64,000 bases of DNA. Origin: Algoriphagus lutimaris. Its GTDB lineage: Bacteria; Bacteroidota; Bacteroidia; Cytophagales; Cyclobacteriaceae. Positions 14,183 through 25,975 of this stretch are shown piece after piece (positions within the stretch are counted from its first letter, which is position 1; each line of letters begins with the position of its first letter). The stretch is from positions 1-64,000 of the forward strand of contig NZ_JAFIDJ010000002.1 of assembly GCF_017051705.1 (NCBI RefSeq), written 5' to 3'. The translations under genes and the position numbers were made by a program. The notes below the pieces were generated by a model. That model made no database searches, was not told the DNA's origin, and worked only from the letters and a program-made list of their open reading frames with translations.

Positions 14183-15250
14183 TTAAGCCAAAATCTTAGC
14201 CGCTAGCCAATCTCCCACTTCAGAAGTCTTGTAAGATGGTCCTCCATCTGCAATATCCTCTGTCACATATCCTTCCGCAAGGGATTGATTCACCACATCA
14301 GAAATTAATTGAGCTTCTTCTTTCAAGTCAAAGGCGTACTCAAACATCATCGCTGCAGAAAGTACTGTAGCCAATGGATTAGCAATGTCTTTTCCAGCTG
14401 CTTGAGGATAAGAACCGTGAATTGGTTCAAATAATTTGATGGAAGTACCCAAAGAGGCAGATGGCATCAATCCCATAGATCCAGAGATTACAGAAGCCTC
14501 ATCCGTCAAGATGTCACCAAACAAGTTTTCTGTAATTAAAACATCGTATGCCTTTGGCCATTGGATCAAACGCATGGCTACTGCATCTACAAATTCGTAT
14601 TCCACTTTTACATCAGGATATTCAGGAGCCAATTCCTGAACTGTCTCTCTCCATAGTCTGGAAGTAGCCATCACATTTGCTTTGTCCACGCAAGTCAATA
14701 ACTTTCTTCTTTTCTGAGCTGCCTCAAATCCCATTCTAGCAAGACGTGTGATCTCTTCCTTGCTATATACATTGGTATCAAAAGCTTTCGTTCCTTGCTC
14801 ATTTCTTCCTCTAGGTTCCCCGAAATAAACCCCTCCGGTCAACTCTCTAAAGAACACGAAATCAACTCCTTCTACTCTTTCCAATTTCAATGGTGATTTA
14901 TGTACCAAAGAAGGGAATGTGAACGTAGGGCGAACGTTAGCAAACAAACCCAATTTTTGTCTCATTAAAAGAAGTCCTTGCTCAGGCCTTACTTTTGCCT
15001 TAGGATCATTGTCATACTTTGGATCACCAATCGCCCCGAATAGAACTGCATCCGATGCAGCAGCAATTTCATGGGTAGAATCTGGATAAGGCAGTCCCGT
15101 GGCATCAATTGCTGCCGCTCCAACTACTGCTTCTTTAAATGAGATTTGGTGTCCGAATTTCTGTCCAATTGCTTTTACAACTTTGACAGCCTGGTCGATT
15201 ACTTCAGGGCCGATGCCGTCACCCGGCAACAGCGCGATATTCATTTCCAT
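14183..15250 (-). CDS. leuB: 3-isopropylmalate dehydrogenase
   Basis: 355 aa. It oxidises and decarboxylates 3-isopropylmalate to 2-ketoisocaproate with NAD, the third leucine-specific step. Motifs are [12 protein letters not shown] at the N-terminus, the substrate-binding [22 protein letters not shown] with its Arg residues, [15 protein letters not shown], and [24 protein letters not shown] with the metal-binding Asp residues. It is the last gene of the operon. Its start overlaps the end of the preceding synthase gene by 32 bases; an ATG two codons later would still overlap. The same enzyme type can process 3-methylmalate in the citramalate route. Confidence 0.96.
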
Positions 15251-16808
15251 AGAATTTGGATTCTTCTTGGGTTGGATTTTGATTAAATGTTTCGACGATA
15301 TTCAGCATTTTCTCTGTGGCCATCATCGCTGCCACGGTCTGATCTGGATCAAGACCTTTAGTTTTAAATATTTTACCATAATCCCAGGTGATCACCGTTT
15401 CCACAAAGGCATCGGTCTTTCCTCCTGGAGGAATGGAAACATGATAATCTATCAGTTTGGGAAGCTCTTTTTTTAGCCCCTTGTAAATTTTGCGAAGCGC
15501 TCTCATGAAAGAGTCATACTGACCATCACCAGTAGCACTTTCATCATAGGTTTTTCCATAGACCTTCATCCTGAGTTGAACCGTAGGTTTCAAGCCTTTG
15601 GAATGAGTCATATGATATCCCTCAATGTGGATATTCTTTTTGATGGAATTATTCTGAAGTACGTCGGAAATGATGTATGGAAGGTCTTCGGTAGTGACGC
15701 GCTCTTTTTTATCTCCCAGTTCAATGATTCTTTGGGTAACTTTGGTCAATTCATCCTTCTCTAAGGAAATACCCAATTCTTCTAAATTCTTTAGAATATT
15801 GGCTTTCCCAGAAGTTTTCCCTAATGCATACTTACGCTGTCTACCAAATCGCTCTGGCATTAGGTCATTGAAATATAGGTTCTTTTTATTGTCCCCATCC
15901 GCATGGATTCCTGCAGTCTGAGTAAATACATTTTCACCTACCACCGGTTTGTTTGCAGGTATATGTTGCCCAGAAAATTGCTCCACCAATTTACTGACCC
16001 TGTAGATCTTCTGCTCTTGAACATTGATCTCTAAGTCCGTAAAATCCTTGATCACTGCAATCACAGATTCCAAAGGTGCATTTCCTGCACGTTCGCCTAA
16101 TCCGTTGACAGTAGTATGAATTCCTGTTACTCCATTTAAAATCGCTTCCATGGCATTGGCCACCGAAAGATCATAATCATTGTGGGCATGAAAATCAAAA
16201 TGTACATCCGGAAATTGTGCTACAATTTCAATAATATAGGCTTTGGTCTCTTCAGGAGATAATAAGCCCAAGGTATCTGGAAGCATAATTCTCTTCACCG
16301 GCTGTTTGGAAAGAAACTCGATGAGGTCAAGCGTATATTTCTTAGAATTACGCATTCCATTACTCCAATCCTCTAGATAGATATTGACATCGATCCCATT
16401 TTCCTGAGCATGGGCAATACTTTGAGCAATGTCTGCAAAGTGCTGTTCTTGAGTTTTCTTTAATTGATGCGTCAAGTGATTTAATGACCCTTTAGTCAAC
16501 AAATTCATCACTTTTGCACCTGCTTGAATAAGCCAATTGACAGATGCTGGAGTGTCTACAAAACCCAACACTTCCACTCGATCCAAATAGCCTTTTTCAG
16601 CTGCCCAATGGGTGATTTTTTGTACTCCCTCCAGCTCACCGTCAGAAACGCGAGCCGAAGCCACTTCAATCCTATCTACCCGGAGTTCTTCCAAAAGTAG
16701 CTTAGCAATTTGTAGCTTTTCAGAAGGCAAAAAGGAAACACCTGAGGTCTGTTCTCCATCCCTCAGGGTTGTATCCATTATTTCTATGCGTCTCTGATGA
16801 TTCATCAA
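15219..16808 (-). CDS. Second 2-isopropylmalate/citramalate synthase family protein
   Basis: 529 aa DRE-TIM metallolyase: [15 protein letters not shown] at the N-terminus, the metal-site [12 protein letters not shown] near residue 200, [12 protein letters not shown], and a C-terminal LeuA regulatory domain after about residue 390. It is clearly distinct from the leuA product five kilobases upstream. In sequence style ([25 protein letters not shown]) it resembles the CimA branch, which condenses pyruvate with acetyl-CoA to citramalate for threonine-independent isoleucine synthesis. Its place between leuD and leuB supports a role in the shared isomerase/dehydrogenase route. Substrate assignment is inference. 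Confidence 0.82.
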
Positions 16809-16811
16809 CGT

Positions 16812-17402
16812 TTATCTTGTTTTTTCAAACTCATCGATCTCAGACTCCATGCTCAGCAAGTAGTCGATATCGTCAAAGCCATTTTGCATATTATCCTTTT
16901 TATAGGCATTAATGTCAAAAGACTCAGTCTCTCCTGTGGAGAGCAAGGTGATTGTTTGAGCAGGAATGCTTACTTCAATTTCCGTTGCCGGATTTTCGGT
17001 GATCGCATCCAATAGTTTATCTGCAAATTCCGGCGAAACCGTCACTGGCAATACACCAATATTCAGACAGTTATTTTTGAAAATATCTGCAAAGAAGCTG
17101 GAAACCACACATCTGAACCCATAATCATAGATGGCCCAAACTGCATGCTCTCTACTGGATCCTGATCCAAAGTTTTTCCCCGCTACTAGAATTTTACCAG
17201 AATAAGTAGGGTCGTTCAAAACGAAATCCTTTTTTGGATTTCCTTCTACATCATATCTCCAATCACGGAAAAGATTGTCACCAAAACCTTCACGCTCTGT
17301 TGCTTTTAGGAAACGAGCAGGGATGATTTGGTCTGTATCTACGTTTTCTGTAGGCAAAGGAACTGCCGTACTCGTTAAAACGGTGAATTTATCGTAAGCC
17401 AT
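16812..17402 (-). CDS. leuD: 3-isopropylmalate dehydratase small subunit
   Basis: 196 aa swivel domain of isopropylmalate isomerase. Visible motifs are VDTDQIIPARFLK near residue 22 and GKNFGSGSSREHAVWAI around residue 74, the segment closing over substrate. It pairs with LeuC, encoded 10 bases upstream, to convert 2- to 3-isopropylmalate (and citramalate to 3-methylmalate if CimA is active). Its stop lies 3 bases before the start of the second synthase gene. Confidence 0.95.
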   Translation of the reverse strand: MAYDKFTVLTSTAVPLPTENVDTDQIIPARFLKATEREGFGDNLFRDWRYDVEGNPKKDFVLNDPTYSGKILVAGKNFGSGSSREHAVWAIYDYGFRCVVSSFFADIFKNNCLNIGVLPVTVSPEFADKLLDAITENPATEIEVSIPAQTITLLSTGETESFDINAYKKDNMQNGFDDIDYLLSMESEIDEFEKTR

Positions 17403-17412
17403 TTTCTTTCTT

Positions 17413-18822
17413 TTAGGATTCTACAAACACTTCGCGTGGATCGGTGATTTTACCGGTTACAGCTACTGCAGCAACGGTCAAAGGAGAAGCCAGCATCGTT
17501 CTGGCACCTGGTCCTTGACGTCCTTCGAAGTTTCTGTTGGAAGTGGAAACTGCATATTTACCTGCTGGAATTTTATCATCATTCATTGCTAGACATGCAG
17601 AACATCCAGGTTGTCTCAACTCAAAACCTGCTTCTTCCAATATTTTCACCAAACCTTCTTCTTGGGCCATTTTCTCCACTTCTTTTGATCCAGGAACAAT
17701 CCAAGCAGTGATGTTATCTGCTTTTTTATGACCTTTCACAAAACCTGCTACCGCACGGATATCTTCGATTCTGCCATTGGTACAAGATCCAACAAAGACA
17801 TAATCCACTTTCTTACCTTTCACAGGCTCACCTGGGGCAAAACCCATATATTCCAAAGATTTCAAGTAAGAAGTTTTATTGCTTCCTTCCATTCCTTCCG
17901 TAGTAGGAATATTTCCAAGAACTTTAATACCCATACCTGGATTGGTACCATAGGTAATCATTGGTTCAATATCAGCCGCATCAAAATGGTATTCTTTATC
18001 AAAAACAGCACCTTCGTCAGTTTTCAATTGAGACCACTCTGCCACTGCCTTATCCCAATCTTCACCCTTAGGAGCATATTGTTTTCCTTTTAGGTATTCA
18101 AATGTAGTCTCATCAGGAGCTATCAATCCACCTCTTGCACCCATCTCTATGGACATGTTACAAATGGTCATTCTTGCTTCCATAGACAAACTTTGAATGG
18201 CAGTTCCTGCATATTCTACAAAGTAACCTGTAGCTCCTGCAGCGGAAATTTTAGAGATGATATAAAGGATGATATCTTTCGAAGTCACACCAGCCCCCAA
18301 CTCACCATCAACGGTGATTCTCATTTTCTTTGGCTTGGACTGCATAATACACTGAGTGGCCAAAACCATTTCCACTTCTGAAGTACCAATTCCGAAGGCA
18401 ATAGCTCCAAAAGCTCCATGTGTGGAGGTATGGCTATCTCCACAGACAATGGTCATTCCTGGTTGGGTAATTCCCAATTCAGGTCCGATTACGTGAACGA
18501 TACCATGATGGGCAGATCCCAAATCATGCAACTCAATTCCATATTTCCTACAGTTTTCACGAAGTCTCTCCACTTGCATGCGAGAAAGCTTGTCTTTGAT
18601 CGTCTGATCCTGGTCTACTGTTGGAACGTTATGATCTGGTGTTGCAATTGTACGATGAGGATATTTTACTGAAACCCCTCTTTTCTCCAGATTTAGGAAT
18701 GCTACTGGAGAGGTAACTTCATGGATAAAATGCTTATCTATGAAGAATACATCTGGTCCAGAAGGTACAGAACGTACCACATGAGCATCCCAGATTTTAT
18801 CGAATAATGTTGTCTTTTCCAT
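17413..18822 (-). CDS. leuC: 3-isopropylmalate dehydratase large subunit
   Basis: 469 aa aconitase-superfamily catalytic subunit carrying the [4Fe-4S] cluster. The cluster Cys residues lie in [14 protein letters not shown] and in [10 protein letters not shown] near residue 410. [23 protein letters not shown] is the strongly conserved active-site block. Full length for bacterial LeuC. It starts 4 bases after leuA and is followed by leuD, with which it forms the heterodimeric isomerase. Confidence 0.96.
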
Positions 18823-18826
18823 GATT

Positions 18827-20335
18827 TTAAGCAGTCGTATATTCTTTGACTGGTATTTTGTTTAGCGCATCAACAAAAGCTTGGGCAGAAGCCAAAACTA
18901 TGTCCGTATTAGAAGAGAACCCATAATAAGGCTTATCTCCTTTGATCAATCTCATGTGTACTTTAGCCACGTCATCACTACCATGGGTAATTGCCTGAAT
19001 TAAGAACTCTTCTAAGTCTACCTGTGGTTTTACAATCTTATCAATTGCTTTCAATACTGCATCTACCGGGCCATTCCCATGAGAAGTCGCTTGATGTTGC
19101 TCCTCTCCAATTGTTAATGAAACCTTCGCTTGAATAGACCCATTAGAAGAATAGGAAACTTCTCCAAGCTCAATGAAATTTGACTCCTCTATATATTTTC
19201 CTACCAAGCCCATCAAGTCCTTTCTACCAATATCCCTTTTGCTATCTGCAAGGACCAAGAAAGCTTCATAGACTTCTCTCAATGCATCTCCTTCCAACTC
19301 AACACCCAAAGCATCTAAATGGTGCTTCAAAGCTGCTCTTCCGGATCTTGCCGTCAAAACAATGGTTGACTCTTCTACTCCAACATCTTTTGGATCGATG
19401 ATTTCATAGTTTTCTCTATGCTTCAACACGCCATCTTGGTGGATACCTGATGAGTGGGCAAATGCATTTCTACCAACAATTGCCTTATTCGGTTGAACAG
19501 GCATATTCATCAGCTTAGAAACCAATCGGCTAGTTTTATAAATTAGAGGGGTAACGATTTCTGTATGAACAGGGATGGATTGATGACATTTTATTGCCAT
19601 CACTACTTCTTCCATAGAAGTATTACCTGCTCTTTCACCAATTCCATTAATAGTAACTTCTACTTGACGGGCACCTTGTTGAACACCGGCAACCGTATTG
19701 GCAGTGGCCATTCCCAAATCATTGTGACAATGTGTGGCGATGATCGCCTTATCTATGTTTGGGACATTATTCTTAAGACTCGAAATAATCGCACCATATT
19801 GCTCAGGCAAACAATATCCTGTAGTATCAGGAATATTTACCACAGTCGCTCCTGCTTTGATTACCTCTTCAATGATTTTGCAAAGGAAATCGGGCTCCGA
19901 ACGTCCTGCATCTTCTGCATAGAACTCGACATCGTCCACAAATTGTCTTGCAAACTTAACGGCCGCCACTCCACGCTTGATGATATCATCTGGCGTAGAG
20001 CGGAGCTTATATTGTATATGGTAAGGAGACACACCGATACCAGTGTGAATCCTACCTTTCTTTGCAAATTTGAGTGCCTGGGCTGCTACTTCGATATCCT
20101 TCTCAACGGCTCTCGAGAGGGCACAAATGATTGGGTTTGAAACTGCCTTTGAAATCTCCACCACCGAGTTGAAGTCCCCCGGACTGGAAATTGGAAAGCC
20201 GGCTTCGATGATATCTACACCTAGTTCTTCCAAAGCTTTCGCCACCACAATTTTCTCCTGGGTATTTAGCTGACACCCTGGAACTTGCTCCCCATCTCTT
20301 AGGGTTGTGTCAAATATCCATAGCTTTTCACTCAT
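18827..20335 (-). CDS. leuA: 2-isopropylmalate synthase
   Basis: 502 aa. It condenses 2-ketoisovalerate with acetyl-CoA, the committing step of leucine synthesis. Catalytic TIM barrel: [15 protein letters not shown] at residue 9, [16 protein letters not shown] around residue 200 with the metal-binding His pair, and [16 protein letters not shown]-terminal allosteric domain (about residue 390-502, with [12 protein letters not shown]) is the usual site of leucine feedback. It lies 18 bases after ilvC and 4 before leuC. Confidence 0.95.
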
Positions 20336-20353
20336 TGTTCTTGGGTTTTAGGT

Positions 20354-21397
20354 TTAATTGTTTTCTGGTCTCAATTGTCTGACGACAGCACCTGCTTGCC
20401 ACATTTCAGAATCTCTCAATTCTTTCAATTCAGCTTCCAATTTCACTCTATAATCTTCTTTCGAATTCGAATCAATAGACTTCTGTGCCTCTTGACCAGT
20501 TTTTACACTATTATATAATTCTTCAAATACTGGCTTGGTTGCATCTCTGAAAGGCTTCCACCAATCCAAAGCTCCTCTTTGAGCTGTAGTGGAACAGTTT
20601 GCATACATCCAATCCATGCCATTTTCTGCTACCAACGGCATCAACGATTGAGTTAGTTCCTCTACTGTTTCATTGAATGCTTCGGAAGGAGTATGTCCAT
20701 TTTCTCTTAACACTTCGTACTGCGCTGCAAAAATCCCTTGGATCGCCCCCATAAGTGTACCTCTTTCTCCAGTAAGGTCTGAAGTAACTTCTCTATAGAA
20801 ATCAGTTTCGAACAAGTATCCTGATCCAACTCCGATTCCCAAAGCTATAACTCTGTCTTTGGCCTTACCAGTTCCATCTTGATAAATTGCATAAGAAGAA
20901 TTCAATCCTCTACCCTCTACAAACATTCTTCTCAAAGAAGTTCCAGAGCCTTTTGGAGCCACCAAGATCACATCGATGTCCGGTGGAGGGATAATTCCAG
21001 TTTTTTCTTTGTAAGTCACGCCGAACCCATGAGAGAAATATAATGCTTTCCCTGGAGTAAGGTGTTTTTTAACTGTTGGCCAAAGAGCAATCTGACCAGC
21101 ATCAGAAAGAAGGAATTGAAGAATTGTACCTCTTTCGCAAGCTTCTTCTAATTCGAACAAGGTCTCACCTGGCACCCAGCCATCAGCAACAGCTTTATCC
21201 CAAGTTTTTGATCCTTTTCTTTGACCTACAATCACGTTAAAGCCATTGTCTTTCAGGTTTAGTGCCTGACCAGGTCCTTGAACCCCGTAGCCTAATACCG
21301 CAATAACTTCATCCTTTAGGACTTCTCTAGCTTTTTCCAAAGGAAATTCTTCTCTGGTAACTACATTCTCCTCTACTGTGCCGAATTTTAATTTCAT
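20354..21397 (-). CDS. ilvC: Ketol-acid reductoisomerase (class I)
   Basis: 347 aa, the short class I form. It isomerises and reduces acetolactate or acetohydroxybutyrate with NADPH and two Mg2+. The Rossmann loop GYGVQGPGQALNL lies near residue 37 and the cofactor-discriminating VGQRKGSKTW follows. ETDFYREVTSDLTGERGTL and the later EELTQSL block hold the acidic metal ligands. A 187-base gap precedes it, the longest within the operon, with a possible internal promoter; leuA follows after 18 bases. Confidence 0.96.
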   Translation of the reverse strand: MKLKFGTVEENVVTREEFPLEKAREVLKDEVIAVLGYGVQGPGQALNLKDNGFNVIVGQRKGSKTWDKAVADGWVPGETLFELEEACERGTILQFLLSDAGQIALWPTVKKHLTPGKALYFSHGFGVTYKEKTGIIPPPDIDVILVAPKGSGTSLRRMFVEGRGLNSSYAIYQDGTGKAKDRVIALGIGVGSGYLFETDFYREVTSDLTGERGTLMGAIQGIFAAQYEVLRENGHTPSEAFNETVEELTQSLMPLVAENGMDWMYANCSTTAQRGALDWWKPFRDATKPVFEELYNSVKTGQEAQKSIDSNSKEDYRVKLEAELKELRDSEMWQAGAVVRQLRPENN

Positions 21398-21441
21398 GTT
21401 CTTAAAATTTGATTTTCAATGAATCTTTGAAATTCAGGGAT

Positions 21442-21449
21442 CAAAATTA
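21442..21449 (-). promoter_or_regulatory. Possible internal promoter before ilvC
   Basis: TAATTTTG on the minus strand matches TAnnTTTG, 45 bases before the ilvC ATG. A TTG lies only 15 nt upstream, shorter than usual. The same 187-base gap (21398-21584) holds a GGATCAA/TTGATCC inverted repeat, a small ACTTC/GAAGT hairpin followed by T residues, and four tandem copies of about TGATT next to the ilvN stop. Tentative. Confidence 0.3.
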
Positions 21450-21584
21450 ATTGATCCTATTTTTCAAAATACTCATCTCATGAGTTTATTTATTTGTTAA
21501 AATTTCTCATGGAATCTAAATGGATAAAAAACTTCAGAGAAGTCTTTACCACATCTCGATTTCATAGGTTTGATTTGATTTGAT

Positions 21585-22085
21585 TTATTTTACGTAACTA
21601 TCAATGGTATGCATCCTTTTAGCTATTGCTACCCTACCTGATCGGGCAAATTCCAAAAGACCATATCCTTTTAATATTTCTAGAAGTTCCTGCGTTTGTT
21701 CTTTGTGGCCAGATAATTCAAGCACAACGAACTCTGGTTCGGCTGCAATAATCTTAGCATTGTGCTGACGAATTATTTTTTCCAGACCTCCATCCAACTT
21801 TGATACTGGAATTTTATAGAGGGCAATCTCTTGATAGACTACCCCATCATCTTCATGATAAAATGCTTTGATCACATCGATGATTTTCTCTATCTGGTTC
21901 ACCAACTGAATGACAGTATCTTCACTTGCTGTCACCTCGATTGTAATCCGGTGAATCCCTTCGATTCTGCTTTCTGAAGCAGTAAGTGCATCAATATTGA
22001 TTCCTCTTCTCGTAAAGATGATGGTGATGCGGTTGAGAATACCGATAAAATTTTCGGTAATCACAAAAATGGTATAACGTTTCAT
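21585..22085 (-). CDS. ilvN: Acetolactate synthase regulatory (small) subunit
   Basis: 166 aa. An N-terminal ACT domain (YTIFVITENFIGILNRITIIFTRRGINIDAL, residues 3-33) binds the feedback amino acid. The C-terminal half matches the ALS_ss_C domain, with ELSGHKEQTQELLEILKGYGLLEFARSGRVAI. It associates with the IlvB catalytic subunit and confers valine control. It starts 9 bases after ilvB. The symbol ilvH would serve equally. Confidence 0.94.
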   Translation of the reverse strand: MKRYTIFVITENFIGILNRITIIFTRRGINIDALTASESRIEGIHRITIEVTASEDTVIQLVNQIEKIIDVIKAFYHEDDGVVYQEIALYKIPVSKLDGGLEKIIRQHNAKIIAAEPEFVVLELSGHKEQTQELLEILKGYGLLEFARSGRVAIAKRMHTIDSYVK

Positions 22086-22094
22086 AGGCCGGAA

Positions 22095-23789
22095 TTAACT
22101 TAGTCTTACCTCTTCTACAGAACAGCCCGTTGCGATCATCGGGAAAACATTGTCTTCCTTCTCTACCACCACTTCTAAGAAGTACGGCCCATCATGAATT
22201 AACATATCTTCAATTGCCTCATTCAAATCTGACCTGTCTGATATTTTTTGGGATTTGATACCATAGGCTTCTGCAATTTTCACAAATTCAGGATTATCCA
22301 ATTCAGTAAATGAATAGCGCTTATCGAAGAACATTTGTTGCCATTGTCTCACCATTCCTAAATAATTATTATTCAGCAAGATGATTTTTACTGGAGCTTT
22401 GGTCTGCATGATGGTGCCAAACTCTTGAATAGTCATCTGGATCCCTCCATCCCCAACTACACAAATTACTTGTCTGGAAAAATCAAACATTTGAGCTCCG
22501 AGGGCTGCAGGCAATGCAAAACCCATGGTTCCCAATCCTCCAGATGTAACCTGGGTACGAGACTTCTTATAATTGAAATACCTCCATGCAATCATTTGGT
22601 GTTGACCGACGTCTGTAACCAATACTGCATCGTCTGCTTTGTATTGGTTCACCTGATAAATCACCTCCCCCATGGTGAGTCCCACCTTTGTTGGGGTGAT
22701 ATCATGTTTAACGACTGCTGCATCTTCCTCACGCTCCAATTCACGGAATTTCTCCAACCATTCATGATGGGATTTTGCTGCAACAGCCTCTGTCAATAAG
22801 CTCAAACTATCTTTGCAATCACCCAAAACTGAATGATGACATCTTATGGTTTTATTGATTTCTGCAGGATCCAATTCCAGATGGATAATCTTCGCTTGCT
22901 TAGCATAACGTTTTACATCCCCTGTCACTCGATCATCAAACCTCATTCCAACAGCAATTAAAACATCGCATTGGTTGGTAAGGATATTCGGTGCATAATT
23001 CCCATGCATTCCTAGTTTCCCCACATAAGAAGGATGATCCTGTGGTAATGCACCAGATCCCAATAATGTGGAAGCTGCGGGTATTCCAGATTTATCCAAG
23101 AATGCTTTGAACTCTTCCTCTGCTTTGCCTAAAACCACCCCTTGCCCATAAAGCACATAAGGTCTTTCTGCGGCATCAATCATTTCTGCTGCTTTCTGTA
23201 TATCAGATTTATTGATTTCAATTTTGGTCTTATAGGACCTGAATCCTAGGCAAGGAACATAATTGAATTCCCCAAAATCAGTTTGTGCATTTTTAGTAAT
23301 ATCTATCAAAACTGGCCCTGGTCTTCCTGATCTCGCTATGAAAAACGCTTTGGCAATTGCCGGAGCTATTTCTTCCACAGTTCTAACTTGGATATTCCAC
23401 TTAGTACAAGGCATAGACATCCCTACAACATCAGTTTCCTGAAAAGCATCAGTCCCCAATAAATGCGCAGCTACCTGTCCAGTAATACATACCAATGGAG
23501 TACTATCTATTAGTGCATCCGCTAATCCTGTAATCAAATTAGTAGCCCCAGGACCTGAGGTTGCTAAACAGACACCGACTTTCCCAGAGACTCGCGCATA
23601 CCCTTGAGCAGCATGAATCGCTCCTTGCTCATGGCGGGTAAGAACATGTTTGATTTGATCGTGGTAATCATACAGTGCATCATACACCGGCATGATTGCT
23701 CCTCCAGGATATCCGAATATAATCTCGGCATTTTCCTCTATGAGAGTTCTGACTACCACATCTGCTCCTCGGATCATCAAGTCTTTCAT
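22095..23789 (-). CDS. ilvB: Acetolactate synthase catalytic (large) subunit
   Basis: 564 aa thiamine-diphosphate enzyme condensing pyruvate with pyruvate or 2-ketobutyrate. The N-terminal PYR domain shows IFGYPGGAIMPVYDAL and the catalytic Glu in LTRHEQGAIHAAQGYAR (around residue 55); the C-terminal PP domain shows VVGDGGIQMTIQEFGT and the NNNYLGMVRQWQ metal and diphosphate motif. It starts 4 bases after ilvD and is followed directly by ilvN. Confidence 0.95.
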   Translation of the reverse strand: MKDLMIRGADVVVRTLIEENAEIIFGYPGGAIMPVYDALYDYHDQIKHVLTRHEQGAIHAAQGYARVSGKVGVCLATSGPGATNLITGLADALIDSTPLVCITGQVAAHLLGTDAFQETDVVGMSMPCTKWNIQVRTVEEIAPAIAKAFFIARSGRPGPVLIDITKNAQTDFGEFNYVPCLGFRSYKTKIEINKSDIQKAAEMIDAAERPYVLYGQGVVLGKAEEEFKAFLDKSGIPAASTLLGSGALPQDHPSYVGKLGMHGNYAPNILTNQCDVLIAVGMRFDDRVTGDVKRYAKQAKIIHLELDPAEINKTIRCHHSVLGDCKDSLSLLTEAVAAKSHHEWLEKFRELEREEDAAVVKHDITPTKVGLTMGEVIYQVNQYKADDAVLVTDVGQHQMIAWRYFNYKKSRTQVTSGGLGTMGFALPAALGAQMFDFSRQVICVVGDGGIQMTIQEFGTIMQTKAPVKIILLNNNYLGMVRQWQQMFFDKRYSFTELDNPEFVKIAEAYGIKSQKISDRSDLNEAIEDMLIHDGPYFLEVVVEKEDNVFPMIATGCSVEEVRLS

Positions 23790-23793
23790 AGGC

Positions 23794-25473
23794 TTAGAAT
23801 TTATCTGTTACACAACCTTCGGATGCTGTGGCAACAAGTTTATTGTATTTTTTCAAAGTTCCCTGCAAATCAGAGATCTCTTTTGGCTTCCAGGTTTTCT
23901 TTCTTTCGGCCAGTTCTTCATCAGTAATCGCTACTGAAAGTTTTAAATTATCTGCGTCAATGGTGATAATGTCTCCATTCCTCACCAATCCAATAGGTCC
24001 TCCACAAAACGCTTCTGGAGTAACGTGACCCACTACAAAACCGTGTGTTCCGCCGGAAAATCTTCCATCTGTAATCAAGGCAACATCTGATCCCAGACCA
24101 GCTCCAATAATCATGGAAGTAGGCTTCAACATCTCTGGCATACCAGGTCCACCTTTCGGCCCGATATTACGGATCACGATTACCTCACCTTTTTCAATTT
24201 TATGATCCCTGATGGCATCATTGGCTTCCTGCTCTGAGTCAAAAACATGAGCGGGACCTGTAAATGAACTTCCTTCTTTTCCTGTGATCTTAGCCACAGC
24301 ACCTTCTGGCGCTAGGTTTCCAGAAAGTATACAAAGATGTCCAGTAGCTTTAATTGGAGTTTCCAATGGGTGAATCACATTCACCATGGAAGGAATTATA
24401 GCCTCAACATTTTCAAGGTTCTCTGCCAAGGTCTTACCAGTTACAGTAAGACAATCTCCGTGCAAAAATCCATTTTGAAGCATGTACTTCATAAAGGCAG
24501 GAAGTCCACCTTGCTCATGCAAATCCTCCATCATATACTTCCCTGAAGGCTTAAAATCACCAATCATAGGAGTTTTTGCATTGATCGCTTTAAAATCTTC
24601 TAGATTAAAATCCACCCCTGCTGTTCTGGCAATCGCAATGATATGCATGACAGCATTGGTACTTCCTCCCAAAGCAATGGCTACCGTCACTGCATTTTCA
24701 ATGCTCTTCCTAGAAATGATATCGCTTGGCTTGATATCCTTTTCCAACAAGACTCTCATATATTTATTGACCTCCTGACATTCTCTCAATTTCTCTGGAG
24801 AATTAGCCGGATAGGAAGAAGAATAAGGCAAAGACATTCCCATGGCTTCAATAGCAGAAGACATGGTATTGGCAGTGTACATGCCTCCACAAGCACCTTT
24901 GCCTGGACAAGCATTTCTAATTACACCATCATAATCTTCATCAGAAATATCTCCGTTTACCCGCTTTCCAAATGCTTCAAAGGCAGAAACAATATTCAGT
25001 TTTTCACCTTTATAATGTCCTGATGCAATGGTTCCTCCATAAAGTAAAATAGAGGGCCTATTTGTTCGAATCATACCCATCAAAGCGCCTGGCATATTCT
25101 TATCGCAACCAGCTACCGCTACACATCCATCAAAAGAGTGCCCGATGATAAATGATTCAATGGAATCTGCAATAATCTCTCTGGAAACCAATGAGTAACG
25201 CATACCCAGCGTACCCATAGTCGTTCCGTCAGATATCCCGATGGTATTAAAAACTAAACCGGTCAAATCTTGCTCCTGAGAGGAGGCTTTGATCAGACCG
25301 GCAAAGTCGTTCAGGTGCATATTGCAGGGATTACTTTCATAGCCACAACTCGCTATCCCTACAAATGGCTGTTTCATCTTTTTATCGCTCATGCCGGTGG
25401 CATACAACATAGCCATTCCGGCCGGATGCTCCGGATTTTCGCTGATTTCCCAACTGTGTTTTTTCAGGGTCAT
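23794..25473 (-). CDS. ilvD: Dihydroxy-acid dehydratase
   Basis: 559 aa iron-sulfur dehydratase that makes 2-ketoisovalerate and 2-keto-3-methylvalerate. Cluster Cys residues are visible in [25 protein letters not shown] and [21 protein letters not shown]; the C-terminal part has [19 protein letters not shown]. First structural gene of the operon: its ATG lies only about 10 bases after the U-tract of the attenuator terminator, so expression of all nine genes depends on readthrough there. Confidence 0.96.
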
Positions 25474-25483
25474 AATAGAGTGT

Positions 25484-25517
25484 AAAAAAAAGTGCCTCAG
25501 GTTTAGTGAGGCACTTT
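25484..25517 (-). terminator. Attenuator terminator of the ilv-leu operon
   Basis: In minus-strand reading an 11-bp perfect stem (AAAGTGCCTCA at 25517-25507 with TGAGGCACTTT at 25499-25489) encloses a 7-nt loop and ends in eight T residues (25491-25484). It stands in the leader, directly upstream of ilvD rather than after a gene. Its left arm can alternatively pair with 25556-25547. Confidence 0.92.
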
Positions 25518-25556
25518 AGATTTGGTTAATTCATTATAAATAGTCTAGTGCCTCAC
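25506..25556 (-). promoter_or_regulatory. Antiterminator hairpin of the ilv-leu attenuator
   Basis: GTGAGGCACT (25556-25547) is a perfect 10-base complement of AGTGCCTCAC (25515-25506), which is also the left arm of the terminator. The two hairpins are mutually exclusive. The first arm starts two bases after the stop codon of the leader peptide, so a ribosome reaching the stop would cover it and favour termination; a ribosome stalled earlier would leave it free. Confidence 0.88.
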
Positions 25557-25558
25557 AT

Positions 25559-25609
25559 TTAACATCCAATGAGAATAATTAAGCTTAGCAAAATGACTAC
25601 TTTAAACAT
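25559..25609 (-). CDS. Branched-chain amino-acid leader peptide of the ilv-leu operon
   Basis: A 16-codon frame from ATG 25609 to TAA 25561-25559 encodes MFKVVILLSLIILIGC. Ten of 16 residues are Val (2), Ile (4) or Leu (4), the three end products of the operon it precedes. It begins about 36 bases after the predicted transcription start and ends two bases before the antiterminator arm. This is the expected layout of a ribosome-mediated attenuator in which scarcity of any of the three charged tRNAs stalls translation and permits readthrough into ilvD. The end resembles a lipobox, but nothing follows the Cys, so a lipoprotein is unlikely. Confidence 0.88.
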   Translation of the reverse strand: MFKVVILLSLIILIGC

Positions 25610-25651
25610 ATTTATGTCGAATGATTTCTTGAATCGATTTTTATTTCTTCA

Positions 25652-25682
25652 CAAACTTAAAACTGAATTTTCAGACTTACAA
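25652..25682 (-). promoter_or_regulatory. Promoter of the ilv-leu operon
   Basis: On the minus strand TTG (25682-25680), a 20-nt spacer and TAAGTTTG (25659-25652) match the Bacteroidota consensus. The start site is predicted near 25645, giving a leader of about 170 nt that contains the leader peptide and both hairpins. The AT-rich DNA from 25690 to about 25970 carries a short direct repeat of GCCGTTTTTT (near 25775 and 25798) and no gene I can support. Confidence 0.75.
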
Positions 25683-25975
25683 TATTTAATTTTACCTCAG
25701 CACTATTTGCCAGATATTTTATATAAGTAAATTCTATTTTTTCAATTTTAAATTCTACAAGAAAAGAATTTTACGCCGTTTTTTAAGAAATAGATTTGCC
25801 GTTTTTTCAATTTTCAAAATTTTGTACTGATTTCAGTTATTTGTGAAAATTTTTAAAAATCTCTGCCTTCTATTAAATAGATTCTAATTAAAGCATCATT
25901 TCTTTTAAAAAGAAAGATCATTTAAAGTTATTTAGTAAAAAGTCTAATCTTTTTCCTTCAAGACTAAGAATCTTC

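Follow-up and report, generated by a model that had tools for sequence, protein, structure and literature searches.

The region upstream of ilvD on the minus strand of the window, by which we mean the whole 64,000-nucleotide stretch of DNA analysed here, very probably specifies a ribosome-mediated transcription attenuator, for which the classic four-segment design is the likeliest form. We draw this reading from the sequence, in which four things are observed directly: the parts of the element, their conservation among relatives, the covariation of the pairing arms, and the register of the control codons. The gene behind the leader, ilvD (23794..25473, minus strand), is the first of the operon and matches TIGR00110 above its cut-off; it is followed on the same strand by ilvB, ilvN, ilvC, leuA, leuC, leuD, a cimA-like gene and leuB (14183..23789), all assigned with NCBIfam models, the best model for the cimA-like gene being NF042433 (citramalate synthase) at 704.3 bits, below the cut-off of 950. 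These assignments agree with the first-pass annotation, which had placed an ilv-leu operon 3' of the leader. Gene order and strand suggest that ilvD through leuB lie on one transcript and, if such a transcript is real, a single attenuator would suffice to regulate most of the synthesis of Val, Ile and Leu. Within the operon, the gap between ilvN and ilvC (21398-21584, 187 bp) has a predicted fold of -40.3 kcal/mol, a value without shuffle control.

All of the leader features are on the minus strand, where every coordinate given in the first-pass annotation was checked and holds. The leader frame, MFKVVILLSLIILIGC, extends from an ATG at 25609 to a TAA at 25561-25559 and has 16 codons, of which 10 specify Val, Ile or Leu (V/I/L); its control codons, V4 to I14 (GTA GTC ATT TTG CTA AGC TTA ATT ATT CTC ATT), occupy 25568..25600, and no Shine-Dalgarno sequence is obvious by eye in front of it. 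Of the codons used, GTC provides 10% of Val codons, and CTA and CTC provide 10% and 5% of Leu codons, in 14 window genes, a usage that is suggestive only. Segment 1 lies within the frame (codons 3-9, 25583..25602), and its partner in the 1:2 hairpin is 25556-25538. Arm A, GTGAGGCACT (25547..25556), belongs to segment 2 and begins two bases past the leader stop; arm B, AGTGCCTCAC (25506..25515), is segment 3, and arm C, TGAGGCACTTT (25489..25499), is segment 4 and the right half of a terminator stem of 11 pairs (25517-25507 with 25499-25489). The stem runs into a T8 run (25484..25491) to make an intrinsic terminator, followed after ten bases by the ilvD ATG at 25473. This B:C (3:4) hairpin before the first gene has a predicted energy of -15.7 kcal/mol, and the A:B (2:3) antiterminator, which excludes it, has a duplex energy of -15.8 kcal/mol. 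The distance from leader stop to ilvD ATG is 85 bases, with the terminator in between.

A three-arm element of this form with a T-run, sought with exact 8-nt arms, is found only here on both strands of the 64-kb window. None arose when 60 sequences of 64 kb were simulated from a first-order Markov model and searched on one strand, and the arrangement is not a product of chance. A search for plasmid copies of the element gave no match.

Upstream of the leader, conserved promoter-like boxes span 25652..25691 (minus strand) and are, we assume, of the Bacteroidetes -33/-7 promoter type. A 19-nt motif, AATTAAATATTGTAAGTCT (25691-25673), contains the TTG of the -33 box (25682-25680), and the -7 box, TAAGTTTG (25659-25652), lies 20 bases after this TTG. 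The spacing in TTG-N20-TAnnWTTG is 20 in 56 of 59 same-genus upstream regions and 19 in two more, the pattern not being found in the remaining one; the first 12 bases of the 19-nt motif are present in all 59 and the entire motif in 42. The 12 constant bases around the -33 box exceed what a promoter would appear to need, and may be a factor site. A wider regulon defined by the 19-nt motif was considered and rejected, as with up to 3 mismatches the organism's own genome contains 7 matches, compared with 7 for the backwards pattern; an exact match is present in this genome at the leader site only.

The ilvD gene is closest by identity to those of Algoriphagus (Cyclobacteriaceae), with 96% identity to that of A. 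iocasae, although the collection may omit the nearest records. Upstream DNA could be read in 59 of 60 same-genus genomes (in G036, which was left out, the contig begins too near), and all 59 have the leader frame, arms A, B and C and the T-run (6-8 T); in each of them both the A:B duplex and the terminator score -11.0 kcal/mol or better. For broader comparisons we used a strict detector demanding a terminator of -9.5 kcal/mol or better, a frame of 12-40 codons that starts with ATG or GTG and contains at least 7 and at least 38% V/I/L residues, together with A:B pairing near the leader stop at a duplex energy of -8 kcal/mol or better. It is positive for 96 of 191 ilvD upstream regions (189 genomes, 59 of the regions same-genus) and for one of 1910 dinucleotide shuffles; the positives come from 39 of 115 genera and 7 of 28 families, including 33 of 74 genera within the family. 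The upstream set left out partial matches (G088, G091, G128) and second, sub-cut-off ilvD copies. Over-cut-off places that were left out are G201, G206, G155, G202, G227, G185, G223, G214, G188, G228, G225 and G193, and sub-cut-off places left out are L193, L194, L195 and L197.

Within the genus the detector is positive for 53 of the 59 regions; the six misses (G002, G006, G008, G011, G013 and G051) keep the arms and have V/I/L below the threshold. These six are small, partly incomplete genomes, and Val is absent from four of their six leaders, for example MTYSLFLLLRFSILLSNSK; from these leader sequences, sensing in the six genomes may have narrowed towards leucine. Among named relatives, a set that overlaps the 191 upstream regions, 74 of 80 are positive, A. 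iocasae (L284) and A. aestuarii (L285) among them, four fail the V/I/L threshold only, and two have too little upstream DNA. Outside the genus, a number of the negative regions seem to hold the end of a different coding sequence immediately upstream of ilvD (judged by eye in part of the sequences, and uncounted), such that ilvD would not be the first gene of its operon there. A phylum-wide sample, which left out eleven over-cut-off ilvD places, gave one positive among 29 loci, 28 of which come from other classes. In five loci from other classes (L256, L257, L260, L261 and L263) a long, near-perfect hairpin without a T-run is located shortly before ilvD, and in L257 and L261 at least a V/I/L-rich stretch, seen by eye, precedes it, possibly a non-terminator version.

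Covariation of the arms was examined in an alignment of 42 non-redundant leaders drawn from this genus and its relatives at genus level (G104, being long, was left out), using as a control structures with partners shifted by 1-3 columns. The A:B cells are paired in 90.7% of cases (31-47% when slid) and the B:C cells in 96.8% (27-55% when slid). Cells with two-sided changes number 14 for A:B, compared with a shuffle mean of 4.5, and 6 for B:C, compared with a shuffle mean of 0.7, with none of 500 shuffles as high in either case, though a slide of -1 of B:C gives 7 such cells to the 6 of the true structure. Counts of pairs are less discriminating: three B:C pairs have a two-sided change (0.7 in shuffles), and the observed number of such pairs is reached in 239 (A:B), 4 (B:C) and 79 (1:2) of 500 shuffles; for additional pair types the corresponding figures are 491, 266 and 131. 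The most informative change is seen in all three arms, where C to U in B (column 119) is matched by G to A in both A (column 68) and C (column 134); it is present in four rows (G077, G090, G093 and G126) that perhaps reflect one event. A second C to U change in B, in G016, is matched in C and leaves a G-U pair with A. Both pairings are thus maintained in the 42-leader alignment, which supports the proposal that A:B and B:C are mutually exclusive hairpins, and the comparative test put forward as capable of refuting the attenuator came out in its favour, with relatives keeping the leader frame and the arms still pairing despite base changes.

The position of the control codons also follows a pattern across the 39 genera. 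V/I/L codons are rare immediately before arm A (0/22 at one codon, 1/33 at two and 7/36 at three), rise to 16/39 at four, and predominate further upstream (33/39 at five, 37/39 at six and 37/39 at seven); the last V/I/L codon is at least 12 bases upstream of A in 29 of 39 genera. Part of this register arises because arm A was sought solely from 12 bases before to 32 bases after the leader stop, near which the frame ends. Over all 39 genera the last V/I/L codon is placed no more tightly relative to A (standard deviation 5.8) than relative to the stop (4.5); it is so only without the two genera whose frame enters A, when these values are 3.1 and 4.1. The mean V/I/L fraction is 0.57 in frame, in genera that the detector had picked at 38% V/I/L or more, and 0.32 and 0.09 in the other two frames. 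The enrichment is therefore specific to the reading frame and placed upstream of arm A, which supports control by Val, Ile and Leu as originally suggested.

The front edge of a ribosome usually lies 15 bases ahead of its P site. With such an edge, a stall anywhere from V4 to I14 would leave arm A uncovered, and a ribosome that has reached the stop would mask it to about 25549. When folds are computed with the RNA blocked to the ribosome front edge, a stall at Leu7 or Ile14 yields A:B, at the stage where B is newly transcribed, and the fold for a ribosome on the stop codon contains B:C alone. The transcription start, translation of the leader, stalling, termination and the response to starvation we infer, and the events would run as follows. 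RNA polymerase would transcribe the leader while a ribosome translates the 16-codon frame behind it; given an adequate supply of charged Val-, Ile- and Leu-tRNA, the ribosome would get to the stop and mask arm A, B would pair with C, and transcription would stop at the T8 run before ilvD. Should any of these tRNAs be short, the ribosome would stall at codons 4-14 with arm A free, covering segment 1 as well if it stalled at the earlier control codons, and A:B would form before C is made, such that polymerase would read on into ilvD-leuB. If no ribosome is present, segments 1 and 2 could pair with each other, again leaving B to the terminator. The detector result (96/191 versus 1/1910), the covariation and the codon register together support the reading as a ribosome-mediated attenuator.

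Leaders before trpE-like genes of the same genus also count in favour of the attenuator. We examined 12 such loci (L235-L246), none of which is above the trpE model cut-off. In all 12 a Trp cluster marks the leader (WWW in 11 of them and GWW in the other) and a terminator is present, a count made with loose thresholds, without shuffle control, and with further trpE-like matches left out. The peptides are of the MKTIANKYWWWH...GKAQKAVA type and the terminator is strong, L237 being the organism's own trpE-like gene. For hisG loci in the family, and again with loose thresholds and no shuffle control, 28 of 29 have an upstream frame (ATG, GTG or TTG start) with at least 4 His, and a terminator-like hairpin is also found in 16 of 29. 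The His-rich frames (L206-L234, the organism's own hisG being L230) reach runs of HHHHH.

The number of segments in the ilvD leader warrants closer consideration, as the first-pass annotation had described a compact three-segment design rather than a four-segment one. This was not supported and is probably wrong, since codons 3-9, within the frame, can pair with 25556-25538, a stretch made up of arm A and the bases that follow. We regard four segments, as in the E. coli type, as the probable arrangement. The 1:2 cells are paired in 71.7% of cases (33-42% when slid), and those with two-sided changes number 31 compared with a shuffle mean of 18.0, with none of 500 shuffles as high, though a +3 slide gives 32. 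Within the genus, TAGTC/GACTA in segments 1 and 2 changes to TGGTC/GACCA, and the pairs at columns 15 and 78 are AU in 17 leaders, GU in 10, GC in 7 and UA in 1, with 7 unpaired. Relative to codon-order shuffles, which retain codon content, the cognate frame gives negative z in 33 of 39 genera (mean -0.99, standard error 0.17, the genera being related and not independent), and relative to other genera's post-stop regions z averages -0.72 and is negative in 30 of the 39; an earlier 40-group version, in which an extra group (G152 and G210) was spurious, gave a mean z of -1.20 with 33 negative. With nothing blocked, the best predicted fold of the full leader is the 1:2 hairpin plus the terminator. 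An attenuator in which A:B and B:C alone matter and segment 1 is without function therefore seems unlikely, being at odds with the 1:2 pairing and the codon-order result, while it fits the greater conservation of A:B and B:C than of 1:2, the weakness of 1:2 in the window alone (43 of 300 codon-order shuffles are as good, which fails a 5% level), and the predicted fold with no ribosome and B just made, which is A:B rather than 1:2.

Two further explanations dispense with sensing by the ribosome. That an RNA-binding protein, a tRNA (T-box) or a metabolite sets the choice between the hairpins, with the frame incidental, is quite improbable: the frame nucleotides are conserved within the genus, as expected of an RNA element, but the V/I/L enrichment is frame-specific and upstream of arm A while the leader sequences diverge, the same-genus trpE-like leaders have WWW or WW instead, and no Rfam family, T-boxes and known riboswitches included, has a match at gathering score on either strand of the 64-kb window. 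We give similarly little credence to a leader that is translated without amino acid sensing, and that aids reinitiation only or holds the termination fraction constant. Reinitiation at leader genes has been proposed for many phyla including Bacteroidetes in a passage of PMC4833913, but the frequency peaks given there are at about 10-16 bases, compared with the 85 bases, terminator included, from leader stop to ilvD. In the similar-looking ilvB leader of Streptomyces coelicolor, a codon substitution was without effect (in the part of PMC1262725 consulted), a precedent for a non-sensing leader that would, by analogy, count against the attenuator reading here. Against such a leader, the control codons fit the pathway product in the ilv and trp operons, and partly in the his operons. 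The attenuator that we favour appears to be conserved in a bacterial group where this type has been little studied.

The best-known cases of peptide attenuation come from Proteobacteria and Actinobacteria. Apart from ermC, a survey published in 2010 was aware of none beyond these two groups until it added a Firmicutes case of its own (PMC2965389), a thetaiotaomicron map mentions short frames that resemble leader peptides (PMC7366714), and the Flavobacterium psychrophilum transcriptome, in the corresponding passage, has signs of leader-peptide attenuation before amino acid operons (PMC9723704). In the open-licence PubMed Central literature we found no Cytophagales paper on an ilvD leader element and no test of transcription-translation coupling in Bacteroidota. 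We put forward tentatively, and with somewhat more doubt than conviction, that ribosome attenuation is a main and long-standing form of amino acid control across Bacteroidota, acting on ilv, trp and probably his, with the footprint spacing kept while leader sequences turn over. If this is true, polymerase and ribosome would be tightly coupled on these Bacteroidota transcripts, and other Bacteroidota classes may use the hairpin version without a T-run that was seen by eye. The diverged natural variants in 39 genera, whose V/I/L codons keep an almost constant distance to arm A, constitute a comparative data set and offer a testable genomic argument for such coupling in Bacteroidota; they would also permit leader peptides to be annotated in such genomes for the ilv and trp operons, and perhaps for his.

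The element shares with the E. coli ilvGMEDA, leu and trp attenuators a product-rich leader peptide, a stop codon between segments 1 and 2, a 2:3 antiterminator, a 3:4 terminator with a U-run, and, probably, a 1:2 hairpin. The likeness described is one of architecture; the leader here has 16 codons, lies in an A+T-rich setting, and stands behind what we take to be a Bacteroidetes-type promoter. With the Corynebacterium glutamicum ilvBNC attenuator it shares Leu and Val control codons, and three hairpins (terminator, antiterminator and, probably, anti-antiterminator) that in that organism have been tested by mutation; the corynebacterial case differs in that the first gene is ilvB and not ilvD, the uORF is leaderless, and the phylum is another one (all from the part of PMC11857589 consulted). 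Actinobacterial ilvB leader peptides differ also in that their mode is described as unclear in the passage concerned (PMC1262725). The F. psychrophilum case has the phylum and the proposed mechanism in common with ours, there deduced from transcriptome structure, and differs in that the passage gives neither operon nor architecture (PMC9723704). The mechanism proposed here is that of the classic textbook attenuators, and that same passage provides a precedent in print for it within the phylum (PMC9723704).
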